A DNA stretch of 42,749 nt. Origin: Algicola sp. (GTDB taxonomy: Bacteria; Bacteroidota; Bacteroidia; Flavobacteriales; Flavobacteriaceae). Made by a program: the position numbers and the translations under genes. This document shows positions 3,323 through 11,375 of the stretch, piece after piece. The DNA lies in the NCBI GenBank assembly GCA_018222835.1, contig JAAEZN010000023.1, positions 1-42,749 of the forward strand. Reading direction: 5' to 3'. The stretch's first letter is position 1; each line of letters opens with the position of its first letter. The notes under the pieces were generated by a model. That model made no database searches. It had not been told where the DNA came from and saw only the letters and a list, made by a program, of their open reading frames with translations.

Positions 3323-4102
3323 CTATTTTGAAACTTTATACGTGCCGGTTTTGGCATCAAACTTTACCATTTCTGAGGGAAACAAACGGTCAAAATGCTG
3401 TTGTTCGATCAATGTGCATGGATCTCCAAAAGGATGGTCTTTTCCGTCCAGAATCAATATACGGTCACACAATTGAATGGCCAATTCGATTTCGTGAGTG
3501 GTGAACAGTATGGTTCTTTGTTTGTTGTGGGCCAGTTCCTGAAGCATTTTTAAAATCTGCACTTTGTGGTACAGGTCCAGGTGTGTGGTGGGTTCGTCCA
3601 GCAAAATTATAGAAGTATCCTGCGCCATAGCTCGTGCCACTAATACCCGTTGTAGTTGGCCATCACTGAGTTCGTGGCATTTTCGGTGTTTAAGGTCTTC
3701 CAGTAAAAAAGCCTTTAAACTAGCTTGAACCTGTTCCTTGTCGTACTTGGTTAGGGTGCCCAACCAATTGGTGTATGGTTGTCGGCCCAAAGCGATCAGT
3801 TCTTGTACCGTTAGGTTTTTAGAGGCGGGTTGCTCTGTTAAAACAATGCTCAATTCTTTGGATAAATCGGAGGAGGTGAACTCTTTCAGGTTTTGATTGT
3901 TCAGCAAAATATCGCCAGATAGTTTGGGTTGGAACCCGCCCAAGGTGCGAAGTAGGGTCGATTTGCCAATACCATTAATGCCCACAATTCCGCAGAGCAT
4001 TCCAGAGTGTAAATTAAAATCAATGCCTTTTGCAACAGTTTTGGAGTTGTAGCCAATGGCCAGATTTTTAACGGATACTATGTTTTCGTCAATTTTTGCC
4101 AT
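3323..4102 (-). CDS. btuD: cobalamin ABC transporter ATP-binding protein (BtuD/FecE-like)
   Basis: This is the cytoplasmic ATPase of an importer that moves a corrinoid across the inner membrane. The 259-residue protein has Walker A GINGIGKS at 41-48, the ABC signature LSDGQ at 145-149, Walker B SIILLDE at 164-170 and the switch His in FTTHE. It is the third gene of the btuF-btuC-btuD operon; its ATG shares one base with the btuC TAA stop (TAATG), implying translational coupling. The family also serves iron siderophores and haem. B12 is inferred from the divergent riboswitch-controlled btuB, not from this protein itself. Confidence 0.88.
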   Translation of the reverse strand: MAKIDENIVSVKNLAIGYNSKTVAKGIDFNLHSGMLCGIVGINGIGKSTLLRTLGGFQPKLSGDILLNNQNLKEFTSSDLSKELSIVLTEQPASKNLTVQELIALGRQPYTNWLGTLTKYDKEQVQASLKAFLLEDLKHRKCHELSDGQLQRVLVARAMAQDTSIILLDEPTTHLDLYHKVQILKMLQELAHNKQRTILFTTHEIELAIQLCDRILILDGKDHPFGDPCTLIEQQHFDRLFPSEMVKFDAKTGTYKVSK

Positions 4103-5133
4103 TAGAATATCATTTTACGTTTGCGCACCAAAATCCAAATAACAACCGGTGCCCCTACCAAAGAGGTGATGGCGTTTATGGGCAGGACACTCGCCGAGTT
4201 GGGCAATTGGGCCAAGGTATCGCACAACAGCATTAAAATGGCTCCGTACAGCATTACGGCCGGGATCAATACTTTGTGCTCCATGGTGTCAAAAATTTGA
4301 CGGGTAAGGTGTGGAACTGCCAATCCAACAAAGGCTATGGGGCCGGCAAATGCCGTGATGCCCCCGGCCAGCAATCCAGTGGCAATGATAATGATCAAGC
4401 GCGATTTCTTTAAGGATATCCCTAGGCTTTGAGCATAATTTTCGCCCAGCAAAAAAGCGTTCAATGATTTAATGGAGCGTACACTGAGCAAAACTCCCAC
4501 AACAACAATGCTTCCTAAAAGCAACAATTGGTCAGTGGATAGGTTCCCCACGCTTCCGAACGACCAAAAAATAAAGCGTTGTAAATCTTCTGCGCTCGAA
4601 AAATAAGCAAGTACACTAACTATGGCCGAAGTAATACTGCCGAACATCAAACCAATAATCAATAAGGCCATGGTATCTTTTACCCGTTGAGCGACGAGCA
4701 TAACAACAAAGAGGACCAAAAAACTGCCAATACTGGCGGCGATGGCAAGCGAAACATTGCTCAAAAAAGCAAATGAGGTATAGCCTGTCAGCAGGGACGT
4801 ACCCATTAAAAGTAATGCAGCGCCCAAACTGGCTCCTGAACTAATCCCCAGCACAAAGGGACCTGCCAGAGGATTCCTAAATAAAGTTTGCATTAAGAGG
4901 CCGCTCAAGGATAATCCTGCTCCAACCAATATGGAGGTGAATGCTTTCGGAACTCGATAGTCCCAAATAATGTATTCCCAAGAGGTTATCTTTGGGAGTT
5001 TTCCGAACAAAATGGATAACACATCCGCAAAAGGAATGGAAACGGAACCAGAACTCACATTCAATAGCCAAGAACATAATAGTGCAATCAACAATAACAA
5101 AAAGGAAATGCGATATGTTCTTGCCAATTGCAT
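4102..5133 (-). CDS. btuC: cobalamin ABC transporter permease (BtuC/FecCD family)
   Basis: The inner-membrane permease has 343 residues with about ten hydrophobic helices, the normal size for FecCD-family subunits, which work as dimers with two ATPases. Family landmarks include RVPKAFTSILVGAGLSLSG near residues 65-83, NPLAGPFVLGISSGASLGA around 87-105 and, near the C-terminus, GPIAFVGLAVPHLTR, the coupling loop that contacts the ATPase. It starts at the base directly after the btuF stop and overlaps btuD by one base, so the three genes form one tight operon. Substrate assignment comes from context. Confidence 0.9.
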   Translation of the reverse strand: MQLARTYRISFLLLLIALLCSWLLNVSSGSVSIPFADVLSILFGKLPKITSWEYIIWDYRVPKAFTSILVGAGLSLSGLLMQTLFRNPLAGPFVLGISSGASLGAALLLMGTSLLTGYTSFAFLSNVSLAIAASIGSFLVLFVVMLVAQRVKDTMALLIIGLMFGSITSAIVSVLAYFSSAEDLQRFIFWSFGSVGNLSTDQLLLLGSIVVVGVLLSVRSIKSLNAFLLGENYAQSLGISLKKSRLIIIIATGLLAGGITAFAGPIAFVGLAVPHLTRQIFDTMEHKVLIPAVMLYGAILMLLCDTLAQLPNSASVLPINAITSLVGAPVVIWILVRKRKMIF

Positions 5134-6285
5134 TTATTTTACGGGTTTAATAAATTGGAGCTGGTGTTCCGGTAATAGCTCTGGATGCAATATTTTAATA
5201 AAATCCCTTAAGACCACGTCGGGACGGTGCGGTGCCGATTCGTAGAAAATAAGCCCTCCGGTTTCACCTTTTTCAATGGCATTGGAGTAAACCTTTTGGT
5301 TTGTAAAAGCCGAAAATTCGTTATAATGGATATTTGCCGCTTTCATTTCATCGTAAGTGATTTGTGCTGATGGATTAAACCAAAATTCGGCATTCTGAGC
5401 TTTTTCCAAAACCGATTCGAGACTAAGACCTATACTTCCTGTTTCGGGAGTGGAAGACCATGCATAATCGGCATTTGCATCCTGTATAAACTGAGCCATC
5501 CAACTTTTGCCCCCGGCCACATACCACACATCTTTGTATAGTCCTCCTGTTAATACGGTAGGTTTGGATTTTGCTTTTTTTGCAATCTCTTTTGCTTGTT
5601 TGTATGATGATTCTACTTCGGTGAAAATACTATCTCCCAAGGTTTCTTTATTGAAGAATGGTGCAAAAAACTTGATCCATTCTGCTTTACCGAGAGGCGT
5701 ATGTTCCACCCAATCTCCATTGTACACAACTGGGATTCCGGCTCTCTTTATAATATCGTAGGCCTTGTTTTCTTCATTTATGCTAAATCCAATAATCAGT
5801 TCAGGGTTAAGGGCCAAAACCATTTCGGTATTGAGCACATCGTTCATTCCCAAATCAGTAATGTGTCCTTCGGAAATACGTTTTCTTGCTTCGGGCGATG
5901 AAATGTAATCCGTATTTGGGAAACCGACCACAGAATTTAGCTCTCCTAGTTGTTGTAGCGGTTCTATGTGAGTGGTAGAAGTAAGTACCACTTTTTCTAC
6001 AGGGGTGGCGATTATGGCATCATAAGCATCTCTTGGTAAGGTAATGGACGGTAGCTTTTCTTTAGGAACCAAAGCATATTTAAAACTTTTTGCCCCGGGC
6101 CAAGCTCCAGTAACCTCTACTATTGTAAGATTAGTCTCTTTGGTTACTTTAAATCCGGTTGCATACGTAACCGTAGGGGGTAATTCCTTTTTTGAAACTA
6201 CTTGTGCTTCTTTCTCACCTTTACAGCCTACGAGTAGCAACAAAAAAAGACTGAAGAGTAGAATTAACTTTTGTGTATGTGCCAT
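5134..6285 (-). CDS. btuF: cobalamin-binding periplasmic lipoprotein (BtuF-like)
   Basis: This substrate-binding component of the importer would capture B12 in the periplasm and deliver it to BtuC. The 383-residue protein has a lipoprotein signal with the lipidated cysteine at residue 21 (LLLLVGC), so it is tethered. The body has the two-lobed helical-backbone fold: AIIATPVEKVVLTSTTHI starts lobe one and NPELIIGF is typical of the hinge-proximal strand. It is longer than E. coli BtuF (about 266 residues), as is usual for Bacteroidota homologues. It is first in the leftward operon. A TACTTTTG box lies only 5 bp upstream of the ATG. A siderophore-binding role cannot be excluded from the protein alone. 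Confidence 0.87.
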   Translation of the reverse strand: MAHTQKLILLFSLFLLLLVGCKGEKEAQVVSKKELPPTVTYATGFKVTKETNLTIVEVTGAWPGAKSFKYALVPKEKLPSITLPRDAYDAIIATPVEKVVLTSTTHIEPLQQLGELNSVVGFPNTDYISSPEARKRISEGHITDLGMNDVLNTEMVLALNPELIIGFSINEENKAYDIIKRAGIPVVYNGDWVEHTPLGKAEWIKFFAPFFNKETLGDSIFTEVESSYKQAKEIAKKAKSKPTVLTGGLYKDVWYVAGGKSWMAQFIQDANADYAWSSTPETGSIGLSLESVLEKAQNAEFWFNPSAQITYDEMKAANIHYNEFSAFTNQKVYSNAIEKGETGGLIFYESAPHRPDVVLRDFIKILHPELLPEHQLQFIKPVK

Positions 6286-6338: not shown

Positions 6339-6346
6339 TAGATTTG
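6339..6346 (+). promoter_or_regulatory. putative -7 box (TAGATTTG) for the btuB riboswitch transcript
   Basis: TAGATTTG is an exact TAnnTTTG match, placed about 40 bp before the first conserved aptamer block. A TTTG at 6311-6314 could be the -33 element, although the 24-nt gap is slightly long. Transcription from here would start near 6350 and produce a leader of about 250 nt holding the whole aptamer. Confidence 0.55.
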
Positions 6347-6351
6347 ACCTC

Positions 6352-6560
6352 GAATTTTGGTTCTCACGGTTTTTCCGTGGGATTAAAAGGGAATCCGGTG
6401 CAAATCCGGAGCTGTTCCCGCAACTGTAAGTTGTGCCCTATAAATACTGGTTCTTTTTAGCATTGGTATGTAATGGGCGATTGTCTCATCTTCTAAAACC
6501 ACTGCCCAAGGGGTGGGAAGGTAGGAGGCAAAACACAAGTCAGGAGACCTGCCAGATTCA
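6352..6560 (+). promoter_or_regulatory. cobalamin riboswitch
   Basis: The conserved cobalamin aptamer core is present in order: GGGAATCCGGTGCAAATCC from 6389, GCTGTTCCCGCAACTGTAAG (6411-6430), and the B12 box AAGTCAGGAGACCTGCC at 6537-6553. Between them lies the variable peripheral domain (6431-6536). Downstream there is no Rho-independent terminator. Instead AAGCCTT (6574-6580) can pair with AAGGTTT (6588-6594) just before the btuB ATG at 6601. This points to control of translation initiation, with B12 binding repressing btuB and the following lipoprotein gene. Aptamer limits are approximate because P1 was judged by eye. Confidence 0.95.
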
Positions 6561-6573
6561 AACAAATATTGTT

Positions 6574-6600: not shown

Positions 6601-8433
6601 ATGGCAAAACATTTTTTCTCCATAGTATTGGGATTTTTATCCTTTTATGTGCCTTGTGTGGCGCAGCAGGGCCCTACTTATCAATTAGATGAAGTAGTGG
6701 TTTCCGATAACCGTTTATTGGATTTTGGCGAGGGGCACAAGGTCGAAAAGCTAAACGATAGTGTAATCCGAAAAAATGGTGCTCTACTTACCTCTTTGTT
6801 GGCTTTTAACAGTACTATTTATTTTAAAGAAGAAGGTTTTGGAATGGTGTCTTCTCCTTCTTTTAGAGGAACCAATGCTTCGCATACAGCTGTAATTTGG
6901 AATGGTATCAATATCAACTCTCCATTAAATGGTCAGGTAGATTTTAACACGGTTCTTCCCTTAAATTATAACGATGTGTCGGTAAGAAGCGGAGGAGGGA
7001 GTGTTCAATATGGTACTGGTGCTATTGGTGGGAGTGTGCATTTGAACAATGTTCTGAGCTTTAGGGAGCATTTCGACAATAAGATAGTTCTGGGTTATGG
7101 AAGTTTTGATACCCGTTCAGTGAGCTACAATCAGGATTATGGAAAAGGAAGATGGTCTTATAGCTTTGGAGCGAACCACGTAGGTTCCGATAACGATTAT
7201 AAATATCTGGATACTGACCAACGAAATGAAAATGGAGGCTTTGAACATTGGTCCGCAAATGTCAATGCTGGATATCGGTTAGGGGATGCACAGTTATTGA
7301 GACTGTATCATCAAAGTCATTTTGGAGACCGTAATTTTAGTGGGACCCTTGTTTCTCCGGGAAGAAGTAGGTACGAGGATACTCGACATCAGACACAATT
7401 GCATTACCAGTTGTATCACGGGAAGGCCAATTCGCAAATACGAATCGCTCATTTATATGAGAGGTTTAAATATTTTGAGAATAAGGAATCTGACTTTTTT
7501 ACTTTTGGCAAGGTACATACGCTTTTAGCTCGGTACCAATTAGATGCGACAATTTCTGAATCGTTTAGAGTCAATTCTTTTTTACAATATTCCAACCTAA
7601 AAGGAGAAGGGGGCAGTTTTGGAGAGCCCTCCCGAAATGATTTTTCATCGACCTTGGTCCTTAAGCATAAGTTGGCCACTAACATTGTGTACAACGTTAA
7701 TCTAAGAAAAGATTTCAACTCGGATTTTGATACACCATTGGTCTATGGGTTGGATTTTCAATATGCAATTTTGCCGGAATATTCTGTAAAGGTTAATGCT
7801 TCGAGAAATTTTCGTTTGCCCACTTTTAATGATTTGTACTGGCAGCCGGGCGGCAATTTGGATTTGGTGCCGGAAACTTCCCATCAAATTGATGTAGGTC
7901 AGGAATTGGGAATAGGAAGCTTTAAAGCTACACTTAATGGTTATTATATAGAGACCGAGGATATGATAAAGTGGTTGCCCGGAAACTCTGGTTTTTGGTC
8001 TCCGGTAAATATCAATTCGGTTACCATTTATGGTCTGGAAGGTGGATTTACATTTTCAAAGCAAATAACTGGGAATAGGGCTTTGGAGCTAAACCTCAAT
8101 TATGCCTACACTGTATCCAAGGACAATGAGACTGATGCACAATTGATTTTTGTTCCCTATCATAAAGCCACTGGTGCATTAGCATACAAGACTGGAGCTT
8201 TTCATGTTTTTTATCAGCATTTATATAATGGCAAGGTTTCCATTATCGGGGGAGAGTTGGACGGTTATCAAGTGGCTAATTTGGGTGTTGAATTTGATTC
8301 CAAACCAAAGAAAGGATTCGGCTATAGTCTAGGGGTAACCTTAAATAATGTGTTTAATGCATATTATGAAAACGTTCCTATAAGACCCATGCCCAACCGA
8401 AATATACAAACACGAATAACACTTAAATTTTAA
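6601..8433 (+). CDS. btuB: TonB-dependent cobalamin receptor (BtuB-like)
   Basis: This outer-membrane receptor of 610 residues would bind and import B12 using TonB energy. It has a Sec signal peptide (about residues 1-21, ending CVAQQ), a TonB-box-like DEVVVSD near residues 30-36, a plug domain with SPSFRGTNASHTAVIWNG and GSVQYGTGAIGGSV, and a barrel that ends in Phe (ITLKF), as is normal for Omp85-assembled barrels. It lacks the CarboxypepD-like N-terminal domain of SusC-type receptors. The length matches E. coli BtuB (about 594 mature residues). The riboswitch leader makes the substrate assignment strong. The next gene starts 2 bp after the stop, so the two are co-translated. Confidence 0.93.
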   Translation: MAKHFFSIVLGFLSFYVPCVAQQGPTYQLDEVVVSDNRLLDFGEGHKVEKLNDSVIRKNGALLTSLLAFNSTIYFKEEGFGMVSSPSFRGTNASHTAVIWNGININSPLNGQVDFNTVLPLNYNDVSVRSGGGSVQYGTGAIGGSVHLNNVLSFREHFDNKIVLGYGSFDTRSVSYNQDYGKGRWSYSFGANHVGSDNDYKYLDTDQRNENGGFEHWSANVNAGYRLGDAQLLRLYHQSHFGDRNFSGTLVSPGRSRYEDTRHQTQLHYQLYHGKANSQIRIAHLYERFKYFENKESDFFTFGKVHTLLARYQLDATISESFRVNSFLQYSNLKGEGGSFGEPSRNDFSSTLVLKHKLATNIVYNVNLRKDFNSDFDTPLVYGLDFQYAILPEYSVKVNASRNFRLPTFNDLYWQPGGNLDLVPETSHQIDVGQELGIGSFKATLNGYYIETEDMIKWLPGNSGFWSPVNINSVTIYGLEGGFTFSKQITGNRALELNLNYAYTVSKDNETDAQLIFVPYHKATGALAYKTGAFHVFYQHLYNGKVSIIGGELDGYQVANLGVEFDSKPKKGFGYSLGVTLNNVFNAYYENVPIRPMPNRNIQTRITLKF

Positions 8434-8435
8434 AT

Positions 8436-9854
8436 ATGAAACTTAAACATTTTCTTTTTGCGGCTGGTTTTGCTACGCTTTTTATGACTTCCTGTTCCAA
8501 CGATGACAACGGAGGCATTCCTATGGATGGTACAATTAGCGCCAGTGTTTCCAGTACAGATTTAACAGAGGATGCGGGGACCGTTACGGTAACGTTTAGC
8601 ACTACTGAAGAGTTTGATACGGATGTTCAGATTTCTTACTCCGTTGAAGGAAGCGCCACTTCTGGTGCGGATTACGAAGCTTTGCCAGGTTCGGTCACCT
8701 TGACCGCAGGCGAGACAAGTATAACCCAAAATTTGGTGGTTATCGATGATGATGAAGTTGAAGAGGAAGAAACTATTGTTCTGACCATAACTGGAGTTAC
8801 AGGTGTGGATGATATTTCCTTTGCCTCTACTGCCATAACATTGACCATTTCAGATAACGACAGTTATCCGTACGAAAATGGAGTTTTAGTTCTACACGAA
8901 GGTAACTTTGGAGCTGGTAATGCTTCAATTTCGTTTATTTCCAATGATCTTTCTATTGTGGAAAATGGAATTTTTTCTACAGCCAATGATGTAAACAACT
9001 GGGGAGATACTGCCCAAGGTATGGCTTTTGATGGTGACCTTGCTTACATTATTTTGCATAACTCGCAAAAGATAGAAGTGGTCAACCGTTACTCTATGGA
9101 ATCTGTGGCAACTATCGATGGGGGCGGATCCAGCGACTTTCTTAATCCACGTTACATGGCCATTGCTGGCGGCAAAGGCTATGTGAGTAATTGGGGAGAT
9201 GGTTTTTCGGCTGAGGATGACTTTGTTACCGTGATTGATTTGGCGACCAATACTGTGGAAACCACTATACCTGTAGAAGAAGGGCCAGAACGTATTTTAG
9301 CTTATAATAATAAAGTTTATGTAGCTCATCAGGGTGGGTATAGCCAAAATAACCTTGTCTCGGTAATAGATGCTTCCGATAATTCTGTTGAAACAATCAT
9401 TGTTGGTGATGTGCCAAATTCTCTACAAGTAGATGCCGGTGGTAACCTATTTGTACTTTGTGGAGGAAATCCTTCATACGTGGAAAATGAAACTGCCGGT
9501 TCTTTGGTAGTGGTTGATACGGAAGATAACACGGTACTGAATACATTTGAGTTTGGAGCTACCGAGCATCCAGGTTATCTTTCCAAAGATGGAGATGTTC
9601 TGTACTACTATTTAGGGGGCAGTGTGTATGAAATAGCGGTGGATGCTACTGAATTACCTGTTACTGCCGAAATATCCGGATTGAGTTTTTACGATATGGC
9701 CGTGAACAATGGAAGGCTTTACGGTGTGGACGCTAAAGATTTTGTTAGTAATGGTAGCTTGGAGGTATATGACCTTTCTGATAATTCTTTGCTGGATTCA
9801 AAAGAAGTATCCATTATACCCGGAGAAATATATTTTAATGGTACACCTGAATAA
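8436..9854 (+). CDS. BtuG-like surface lipoprotein: Calx-beta domain plus beta-propeller (DUF5074/YncE type)
   Basis: Probable B12-capturing lipoprotein that caps the receptor on the cell surface. The 472-residue product has a lipoprotein signal with Cys20 (FMTSC) followed by S-N-D-D-N, an acidic stretch like those that direct Bacteroidota lipoproteins to the surface. Residues about 30-145 form a Calx-beta domain (acidic strand pair, ending TLTISDND). Residues about 150-472 are repeating propeller blades, starting GVLVLHEGNFGAGNASISF and then GKGYVSNWGDG, VTVIDLATNTVETTI and VSVIDASDNSVETII. Bacteroides BtuG is a seven-bladed propeller lipoprotein that binds B12 very tightly and partners BtuB; the btuB-linked position and riboswitch control fit that role. 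The Calx-beta addition is not part of BtuG as I know it. B12 binding is inferred. Confidence 0.8.
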   Translation: MKLKHFLFAAGFATLFMTSCSNDDNGGIPMDGTISASVSSTDLTEDAGTVTVTFSTTEEFDTDVQISYSVEGSATSGADYEALPGSVTLTAGETSITQNLVVIDDDEVEEEETIVLTITGVTGVDDISFASTAITLTISDNDSYPYENGVLVLHEGNFGAGNASISFISNDLSIVENGIFSTANDVNNWGDTAQGMAFDGDLAYIILHNSQKIEVVNRYSMESVATIDGGGSSDFLNPRYMAIAGGKGYVSNWGDGFSAEDDFVTVIDLATNTVETTIPVEEGPERILAYNNKVYVAHQGGYSQNNLVSVIDASDNSVETIIVGDVPNSLQVDAGGNLFVLCGGNPSYVENETAGSLVVVDTEDNTVLNTFEFGATEHPGYLSKDGDVLYYYLGGSVYEIAVDATELPVTAEISGLSFYDMAVNNGRLYGVDAKDFVSNGSLEVYDLSDNSLLDSKEVSIIPGEIYFNGTPE

Positions 9855-9879
9855 TCTTTGAATATTGTAATGATAAAAT

Positions 9880-9907
9880 AAAAAACCGGCCAATTGGCCG
9901 GTTTTTT
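9880..9907. terminator. bidirectional Rho-independent terminator
   Basis: The perfect palindrome CCGGCCAATTGGCCGG (9886-9901) is flanked by A6 on the left and T6 on the right, so it can stop transcription in both directions. It closes the btuB-lipoprotein operon and lies immediately after the stop codon of the leftward S41 protease gene. Confidence 0.95.
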
Positions 9908-9908
9908 A

Positions 9909-11375
9909 TTAGTTGTTCAATTGCAATGGTTTATCCAAATACATATTGTCTTTTAATGGAGTTTCCAATCTAGAAGATGTAAAAGACTCTGCAGGCATTT
10001 TTACTGTAAAGTCGATTTTAGCAGTCCCTGATGAAATTTCCTCCAAAGCACGTGCCAGTAAAGGCTCATTTACATTGCCCAAAACACCAAAATTGGTCAA
10101 ATCTTCTTGAAGAGTAATGTCTGGGGTTAAACCATTGGTGTAGTCATAAAACCCATCCGCATTTTCATTTCTTCCTACCAAAGGTTGTAATCCCCAAGAA
10201 TTTTCAGCATTAATATTGTCTTCACGGTCACTATTATATATATAAGAGTTTGCAGGATCATCTACCAAGGTAATGGAAAACTCATTTTTACCACGAGTAG
10301 TTTCTCCAATATGGATTACATCGATGTAAGGGGCAAGACCATTCATTACCAGCTCACTTGCCGAGGCAGAGTCTTCTGTGGCAATAACAAAAACACGATC
10401 TAAATTTAAGGAGTTGATGGCGCTTGTACCCGTGGAACTCGCAAAATAGTCAGTTAGGAACTCATCCGAAAACTCCGCTTGAACCTTATCGTTCCAACGC
10501 TGTTTAATATAAACTTTACTGGTGTTGGTTCCATAGATCATACTTGCTAACAGACGTGAAGTATTTACTGAGCCTCCAGGATTGTAACGCATATCCAAAA
10601 CAAGTTCTGTTGCTCCATCTGCTTTAAATTGGGCGAACACATCATTAAGCTGCTCATTAAAACTACTTAAAAAACGGTTGTACATTAAATAGGCAACGAT
10701 AGTTCCGTTTACATCTAAAGTCTCGGCAATTAAGATAGGATCTTCGACTTGGTTTTCTATTTTGGTAAGTTCTACTTCTTTGGCGCTATCAGAAATGGTA
10801 TTATCGGTAATGGTGGCCATTCCCAGAGTGTAAGTGCTGTTTTCGCCAAATAAAAGATTCCTATAATTGTTAACGGTAAGTTGCGTCCTATCGACCCTGG
10901 TGAAAAACTCACCTCTTTGGATGTCTTTTGTAGAGGCATCGGAATCTGGCCATATATATAGTACATAACCGAAAACATTGTCCGTATTTCCAATTCTACT
11001 TAATCTAAATTCAACCCCATTGCTTTGCGATATTCCAGATAGGCCACTTACCAGTTCCGAGTAATCTTCATTGGCAAAGCTAAATCGATCTGTAGCCAAA
11101 TCTTCGCCAACTATTCTACTATGATTGTTACATATGCTGTAGTAAAAGGTCTCAGGATCGGTATTGGCTTCTAAAAAAGCAGTGTACTCGGCATTTGTGG
11201 AAAACCTGTCATCTGCCAGAACATCTACTTCGCCTTGCCAAAAGTACCATTGATTCATTGCTCTCCACATAAAGTTTTGAGCGTCAATATTCGCTGGTAT
11301 GTTGCCATCGTCATCGTTGCTACATGAGGTAAAAAGGAAGGATGCTCCCAAAAATAGATATAGGTACTTTTTCAT
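9909..11375 (-). CDS. S41 family (C-terminal-processing type) peptidase, lipoprotein
   Basis: This secreted serine protease of 488 residues has a Ser/Lys dyad. The signal peptide ends in a lipobox (LFTSC, Cys18) followed by S-N-D-D-D, suggesting export to the cell surface. An N-terminal helical region and a PDZ-like segment precede the catalytic domain, where DMRYNPGGSV precedes the nucleophile motif DSASASE (probable Ser338) and RGKNEF holds the probable general base Lys363. Such Bacteroidota S41 lipoproteins are widespread, but their substrates are mostly unknown. It is monocistronic and ends at the bidirectional terminator shared with the B12 operon. No recognisable promoter box was found in 11376-11588 on this strand. 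Confidence 0.9.
   Translation of the reverse strand: MKKYLYLFLGASFLFTSCSNDDDGNIPANIDAQNFMWRAMNQWYFWQGEVDVLADDRFSTNAEYTAFLEANTDPETFYYSICNNHSRIVGEDLATDRFSFANEDYSELVSGLSGISQSNGVEFRLSRIGNTDNVFGYVLYIWPDSDASTKDIQRGEFFTRVDRTQLTVNNYRNLLFGENSTYTLGMATITDNTISDSAKEVELTKIENQVEDPILIAETLDVNGTIVAYLMYNRFLSSFNEQLNDVFAQFKADGATELVLDMRYNPGGSVNTSRLLASMIYGTNTSKVYIKQRWNDKVQAEFSDEFLTDYFASSTGTSAINSLNLDRVFVIATEDSASASELVMNGLAPYIDVIHIGETTRGKNEFSITLVDDPANSYIYNSDREDNINAENSWGLQPLVGRNENADGFYDYTNGLTPDITLQEDLTNFGVLGNVNEPLLARALEEISSGTAKIDFTVKMPAESFTSSRLETPLKDNMYLDKPLQLNN

Follow-up and report, generated by a model that had tools for sequence, protein, structure and literature searches.

The locus analysed here raises the question of why a BtuG-like lipoprotein, encoded directly behind a receptor gene of the btuB type, should carry a Calx-beta domain between its lipid anchor and its propeller. 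The window, by which we mean the whole stretch of DNA that was analysed, comprises 42,749 nucleotides from Algicola sp.; the features of the locus are collected in Table 1.

The btuB-btuG locus and its lipoprotein product

According to the preliminary description, a lipoprotein gene follows btuB by 2 bp under a cobalamin riboswitch, and its product consists of a Calx-beta domain (residues 30-145) and a propeller (residues 150-472). ORF analysis, cmscan, Pfam and phmmer confirmed all of this, with two base pairs between the btuB stop codon and the ATG of the gene, and Pfam and phmmer placed the domain borders within a few residues of those claimed. The architecture matches were judged to be well beyond chance by the E-values of the tools and by curated cut-offs.

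Table 1. Coordinates, strands and supporting evidence for the features of the btuB-btuG locus in the window.
Feature	Position	Strand	Basis
Divergent genes resembling binding protein, permease, ATPase	3323..6285	-	Peripla_BP_2 (first gene); permease, ATPase by eye
Cobalamin riboswitch aptamer RF00174, upstream of btuB	6341..6570	+	cmscan 98.2 bits, gathering 31.5
btuB, TonB-dependent receptor, Bacteroides BtuB2/3 type	6601..8433	+	Plug and barrel Pfam domains, PDB matches
BtuB residues 455-470, EL8-like motif MIKWLPGNSGFWSPVN	7963..8010	+	alignment, positions counted on 8p98 numbering
btuG-like lipoprotein gene, 472 aa	8436..9854	+	ORF, Pfam, phmmer
Signal peptide, lipobox Cys20 (8493-8495), acidic SNDDN, export-signal-like	8436..8510	+	sequence; most relatives laid out similarly
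Calx-beta domain, residues 35-141	8538..8858	+	PF03160 46.9 bits, cut-off 27
Candidate Ca2+ ligands E45, D79, D104, D105, E109, E112, D140, D142	8568..8861	+	alignment to NCX1 CBD1
BtuG-type beta-propeller, residues 147-468	8874..9839	+	phmmer; Foldseek on template-free model
Codons of Y302, Y348, H378, Y419, F436, aligned to BtuG2 pocket residues	9339..9743	+	alignment; BtuG2 numbering checked
15-pair palindrome with T tails, terminator-like	9877..9910	. (listed on -)	between btuG and convergent S41 peptidase gene

The top PDB matches of the btuB product are the BtuB chains of Bacteroides BtuBG complexes (8p97_A, 8p98_A and 8bmx_C; E 6e-48 to 5e-46). For the comparison of its EL8-like motif, the role of Tyr538 was taken from a figure legend in PMC10404256. 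A cobalamin riboswitch was present in 17 of 17 loci scanned (L037 and L199 are the same place), a scan that covered ten Calx places, that of L197 not among them. The divergent genes are probably btuFCD; for the first of them the name btuF is tentative, its NCBIfam BtuF match reaching only E 0.028. The region holds 5 terminator-like sites, versus 2.7 in shuffles.

Inspection by eye placed Cys20 in an MTSC lipobox followed by the acid-rich SNDDN, and an acidic tail in this position has been put forward as an export signal in the available part of PMC6143338. In a search of PDB chains the Calx part matched NCX1 CBD1 structures, and it is the sole PF03160 match at E 0.001 in the window genome. DUF5074 matched residues 148-366 (57.4 bits; Pfam cut-off 27.2), while residues ~147-465 matched PDB chains of nine distinct sequences by phmmer (E 5.8e-23 to 1.2e-22), most of which are named BtuG entries (8baz and 8puj are not among the named). 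The protein ends a few residues past the propeller, and the C-terminal BtuH domain of ~250 residues is absent. The mature protein (8493-9851) is very acidic, with a net charge of about -65, to which the Calx-beta domain contributes about -24 and the propeller -39; the propeller part of BtuG2 has -16.

A template-free model was built from two sequences, the window protein and one distant relative. When this model was compared by Foldseek, ranks 1-16 were all BtuG or BtuG-homologue entries, a result that is not fully independent of the sequence because Foldseek also uses the letters. Since mean pLDDT was 60, pTM was 0.54 and much of the joint between Calx-beta domain and propeller lay below 50 pLDDT, the model, which extends neither to the placement of the domains nor to a count of the propeller blades, does not establish the geometry of a strut.

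The aromatic residues named for the B12 pocket of BtuG2 in the available part of PMC10404256 are W194, Y239, W272, Y316 and Y335. They correspond to Y302, Y348, H378, Y419 and F436 in the window protein, so that four of the five are still aromatic, the exception being W272. Relatives are aromatic at the positions of W194, Y239, Y316 and Y335 in at least 104/110, 85/94, 100/111 and 103/109 cases, respectively, these counts being lower bounds drawn from the four commonest letters of each column. At the position of Trp272 the commonest residue is His (87 of 111 relatives). His378 (9567-9569) thus occupies the place of Trp272 in the upper-ligand cavity, where it might bind cobalt from above. BtuG2 has the same residue at many of the positions that 85% or more of the relatives conserve, among them G149, E155, G156, N184, P238, R239, Y249, D261, E285 and D435.

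Of the 104 propeller rows in the family sample, 96 are directly preceded by a btuB of the window type. The other eight are L037 and L060, which stand behind another BtuB type, three second copies, the fragment L107, and L108 and L109, beside which no receptor gene was seen. It is very improbable that the protein is a propeller lipoprotein with some other ligand that merely lies beside btuB: the one differing pocket residue (W272 to H378) would fit such a protein, but the riboswitch, the type of receptor, the homology, the pocket residues and the fold all indicate B12, as does this placement behind btuB. The BtuG-type identity proposed beforehand was borne out by riboswitch, btuB neighbour, lipobox, DUF5074 and BtuG homology. 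Because of the propeller homology, the four retained aromatics and the BtuB2/3-type partner with a similar EL8 loop, the window protein is, by its sequence, a BtuG with an inserted domain. From the homology and the pocket residues we infer that its propeller catches B12.

Distribution and origin of the Calx-beta insert

Among the 299 genomes of the family sample, 107 had a match, five of these to the Calx part only; the seven Calx-part-only matches were left out of the counts. The 100 loci retrieved yielded 104 propeller rows including the window, of which 103 were counted, L107 (a 140-aa fragment) having been excluded from alignments and trees. Pfam detected DUF5074 in 97 of these rows, Calx-beta in 7, PKD_3 in 1 and a T9SS sorting tail in 3. 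The same domain order is thus found in 7 of 103 rows, in keeping with the earlier claim that the Calx-beta domain is an addition absent from most relatives. Six weaker family matches outside the counts (L176-L181) showed no Calx-like N-terminus.

A lipobox was called by pattern in 83 rows; the pattern missed 21 of 104, most of which show the Cys by eye. In 74 of the 83, 13-28 residues separate the Cys from the propeller, and the nine longer spacers belong to seven Calx-beta rows (123-127 residues), the PKD_3 row L077 (94) and the Pro/Glu row L036 (35). At the place of the Calx insert, L077:3671-4963(+) carries a PKD-like domain (PKD_3 26.4 bits, cut-off 26.3) and L036:1501-2622(-) a Pro/Glu-rich stretch of 35 residues.

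Genus-level searches, which covered genera other than those of G164 and G087, added Calx-BtuGs in G301, G719, G729, G734 and G730, bringing the total to 12 genomes. The share of genomes with a Calx-BtuG was 2/60 in the window's genus and 2/3, 4/18 and 2/4 in other genera. The two in the window's genus are the only ones there with this btuB and btuG, and the locus is therefore patchy in the genus. In the second of these genomes, G301, btuG stops early at a stop codon (genus G299-G356; L174:1627-2889).

Of the 395 genomes of the order sample 179 had a match, and among the matches listed only those in the window's family covered most of the Calx-beta domain. A Calx-BtuG as a rule of the class was not supported: with 395 genomes searched and 228 matching, only the window's own match, among those listed, covers most of the Calx-beta domain. 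A single-protein scan of genome contigs found one relative, and a profile search of viral contigs found none.

A tree built from the propellers alone (87 rows) places 11 Calx rows in three separated groups. The first contains the window, L032, L196, L033 and L174 together with the Calx-free L034 and L035 (support 100/97); in the second, L038, L042, L195 and L194 stand among Calx-free rows (100/100); in the third, L037 and L060 stand beside the Calx-free L192 (100/99). The trees leave out five long-branch rows (L113, L126-L129) and L197, which is cut at the contig end, and the 87-row tree omits 24 further rows. On this tree the presence of the Calx-beta domain requires at least 7 changes, a count that does not separate gain from loss. 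A single origin of the Calx form was also considered and rejected: a tree forced to group all Calx rows together is worse by 263.7 log-likelihood units (p-AU 3.7e-40). Since the domain is absent from the close kin L034 and L035 within the window's own supported group, it is dispensable. The proposed marine-flavobacterial variant needed correction in one respect: the Calx form is rare and repeatedly gained or lost, and at 7/103 in the family and 2/60 in its own genus it is not a family rule. The Calx insert is a minority, labile feature of BtuG.

BtuG-like propellers also occur with a T9SS sorting tail: L062:1246-2532(-), L073:5076-7046(+), L081:5000-6289(+), L162-L169 and L173. By eye, these have a plain signal peptide without a lipobox Cys. 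Por_Secre_tail was found in 9 of 9 order-sample proteins picked for a C-terminal extension. A second BtuG-type gene lies beside the T9SS-tailed one in L062, L073, L081 and L167-L169, and in L163-L166 no BtuG-type gene other than the T9SS-tailed one was seen with btuB.

In 10 of the 12 Calx loci a complete Calx-BtuG adjoins the receptor gene and is the only btuG seen there, an arrangement that fits a lid; the remaining two are L197, cut by the contig end, and L194. At L194:1501-6014(-), btuB, an ordinary btuG and a Calx-btuG lie in a row, with the Calx copy on a long branch. As an ordinary btuG precedes it there, this second copy may not be a lid.

At L199:6845-10279(-) and L200:7923-11362(-), both with a cobalamin riboswitch, an E. 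coli-type BtuB lies ahead of the Calx-BtuG, and no window-type BtuB was found in either stretch. These receptors scored 188 and 184 bits with TIGR01779, below its curated cut-off of 599.7, as do BtuBs of the window type; the best PDB matches of the L199 receptor are 3m8b and 1nqe. An E. coli-type receptor is also present at L107 (G036), together with only a btuG remnant of 140 aa.

Calcium positions, receptor partners and the role of the arm

The candidate Ca2+ ligands of the Calx-beta domain (Table 1) were identified by alignment to NCX1 CBD1, using the ligand list given in the available part of PMC3386913. In the aligned part the ligand numberings agree once a constant offset of 10 is applied; D140 and D142 were paired with CBD1 D498 and D500 by motif only, the middle residue being Asn in the window protein. 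Across the 12 BtuG Calx domains, the positions of E45, D105, E109, E112 and D140 are acidic in all, that of D142 is D or E in all, that of D79 is D in 11, and that of D104 is D or E in 9 and D, E, N or Q in 12. Seven invariant columns fall inside the Calx-beta domain in an 11-protein alignment, and five of them are candidate Ca2+ positions. Acidic Ca2+ positions are usually kept in Calx-beta domains, and their conservation here is no proof that they serve the lid.

At the junction, about five residues separate D140 and D142 from the propeller. For CBD1 of NCX, the accessible text of PMC3386913 reports that the linker leading to the following domain is restricted by the Ca2+ sites at that end. 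By analogy, Ca2+ may stiffen the BtuG Calx arm in a similar way.

The explanation that we favour, at somewhat better than even odds (roughly 0.57), is that the protein is a BtuG whose Calx-beta arm, set between lipid anchor and propeller, serves as a rigid, Ca2+-loaded strut of Ig-like fold for the B12 lid. The propeller would capture B12 and act as a lid on the BtuB encoded just upstream, with the Calx-beta domain inserted where the acidic export-signal linker would otherwise meet the first blade of the propeller. Ca2+ would be bound at the end of the sandwich beside the propeller joint, stiffening both domain and joint, and the lid would then swing on an arm longer and stiffer than the ~15-residue tether of ordinary BtuGs. 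The apparent repeated gain or loss of such blocks in related bacteria suggests that it matters how long and how stiff the arm is.

The preliminary description had also allowed that the domain contacts the loops of the receptor, and it is unlikely, though conceivable, that the Calx-beta domain is a docking module which packs on extracellular loops of BtuB (e.g. EL2, EL11) and steers the opening of the lid. The tether of BtuB2G2 follows EL2 and is kept in position by that loop and EL11 (available part of PMC10404256); the insert occupies the place of this tether, and the EL2 motif SDNDYKYL is kept in the window BtuB. We aligned 103 BtuBs, nine of them partners of Calx-BtuGs, comparing loop lengths rather than loop residues, and no loop length tracked the Calx-beta domain throughout. 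An insertion of 7 residues at window BtuB position 390-391 is common to the partners in L038 and L042; none of the 94 BtuBs without a Calx partner has more than 2 residues there, and in that pair the insertion could contact the Calx-beta domain. However, it is absent from the other 7 of 9 partners, including those in L195 and L197, which belong to the lineage of L038 and L042, and the remaining length differences (at 489-494, at 569-574 and in a short loop near 552) are common to the Calx-free kin L034 and L035. In the same-genus pair L032/L196, moreover, the Calx-beta domain evolves faster (dN 0.25, dS 1.21, dN/dS ~0.20) than the propeller (dN 0.14, dS 1.72, dN/dS ~0.08), a contrast that comes from a single pair with dS above 1. 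This faster evolution, the lack of a consistent loop length and the pairing with E. coli-type BtuBs in L199 and L200 favour the strut over a specific contact with BtuB. Of the two roles proposed at the outset, the calcium-stiffened spacer is hence the better supported, given also the Ca2+ positions and the other spacers found at the same place.

The arm might instead make BtuG a stand-off collector, which would take up B12 at a distance from the barrel and then hand it over, the acidic domain adding to an attracting electric field. We consider this doubtful. Simulations reported in the available part of PMC10404256 describe electrostatic attraction of B12 by BtuG2, the net charge is -17 to -25 in all 12 BtuG Calx domains, the Calx-BtuG of L194 is an additional copy, and the T9SS-tailed propellers show that other modes of display recur; but bound Ca2+ and salt would screen the charge, and in most Calx loci the Calx-BtuG is the sole btuG adjoining the receptor gene. 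Still less probable is a near-neutral passenger, gained and lost with little effect. The rarity and lability of the insert, and the fact that ordinary BtuGs manage without it, are what one would expect of a passenger, yet the acidic Ca2+ positions are kept, dN/dS of about 0.2 in the one pair points to constraint, and the domain sits at the same place in 12 of 12 proteins. In addition, the BtuG copy is the sole Calx-beta match in the genomes of G000 and G087, and PKD-like and Pro/Glu-rich spacers recur at that same place. A broader reading, which we regard as possible but tentative, takes the tether as a swappable module (Calx strut, PKD-like domain, Pro/Glu rod or T9SS tail, the last at the other end of the protein and without a lipid anchor), with the Calx form a Ca2+-dependent lid that reaches a foreign BtuB in L199 and L200 or a separate collector in L194.

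The Bacteroides BtuBG complexes described in the available part of PMC10404256 are closed, with the tether proposed as a hinge. The mechanism by which a BtuG lid opens is unsettled, and the Calx-BtuGs, together with their Calx-free close kin L034 and L035, are natural tests of tether length and stiffness, since the tether of these BtuGs carries a rigid domain that is possibly switched by Ca2+. The pairing of Calx-BtuGs with E. coli-type BtuB further raises the question of whether the lid needs its own receptor.

Comparison with known systems

We asked whether Calx-beta fusions are already described as a standard BtuG architecture. A literature search of largely open-access papers, bioRxiv preprints excepted, brought up none that mentions both BtuG and Calx-beta, and among the further papers listed no title or opening of an abstract described such a fusion.

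The closest known system is that of Bacteroides thetaiotaomicron BtuG2 and BtuG3 (available parts of PMC6143338 and PMC10404256), with which the window protein shares the propeller, most pocket aromatics, the lipobox with its export-signal-like tail, the btuB neighbour and the riboswitch, while the partner BtuB shares the EL8-like loop. Unlike BtuG2 and BtuG3, which have a linker only, it carries the Calx-beta domain between anchor and propeller, and His378 replaces Trp272 of BtuG2. An extra domain is also present in BtuG1, a fusion of BtuG with BtuH (BtuGH) according to the accessible parts of PMC10404256 and PMC12751083; there it is C-terminal and binds B12, whereas the window protein has its extra domain, a Calx-beta, on the N-terminal side.

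With CBD1 and CBD2 of NCX1 (3us9, 2dpk) the insert shares the Calx-beta fold family and the acidic Ca2+ positions, but those domains are regulatory Ca2+ sensors of an exchanger, and here a single domain of a lipoprotein adjoins a propeller. A propeller next to an Ig-like domain is likewise seen in 1l0q, an archaeal surface-layer protein with a YVTN propeller and PKD domains; judged by the title of that entry alone, its domain order and context differ. We know of no link between 1l0q and B12. The BtuG class is thus a known one, and the N-terminal Calx-beta arm is a new, rare and labile form of it.
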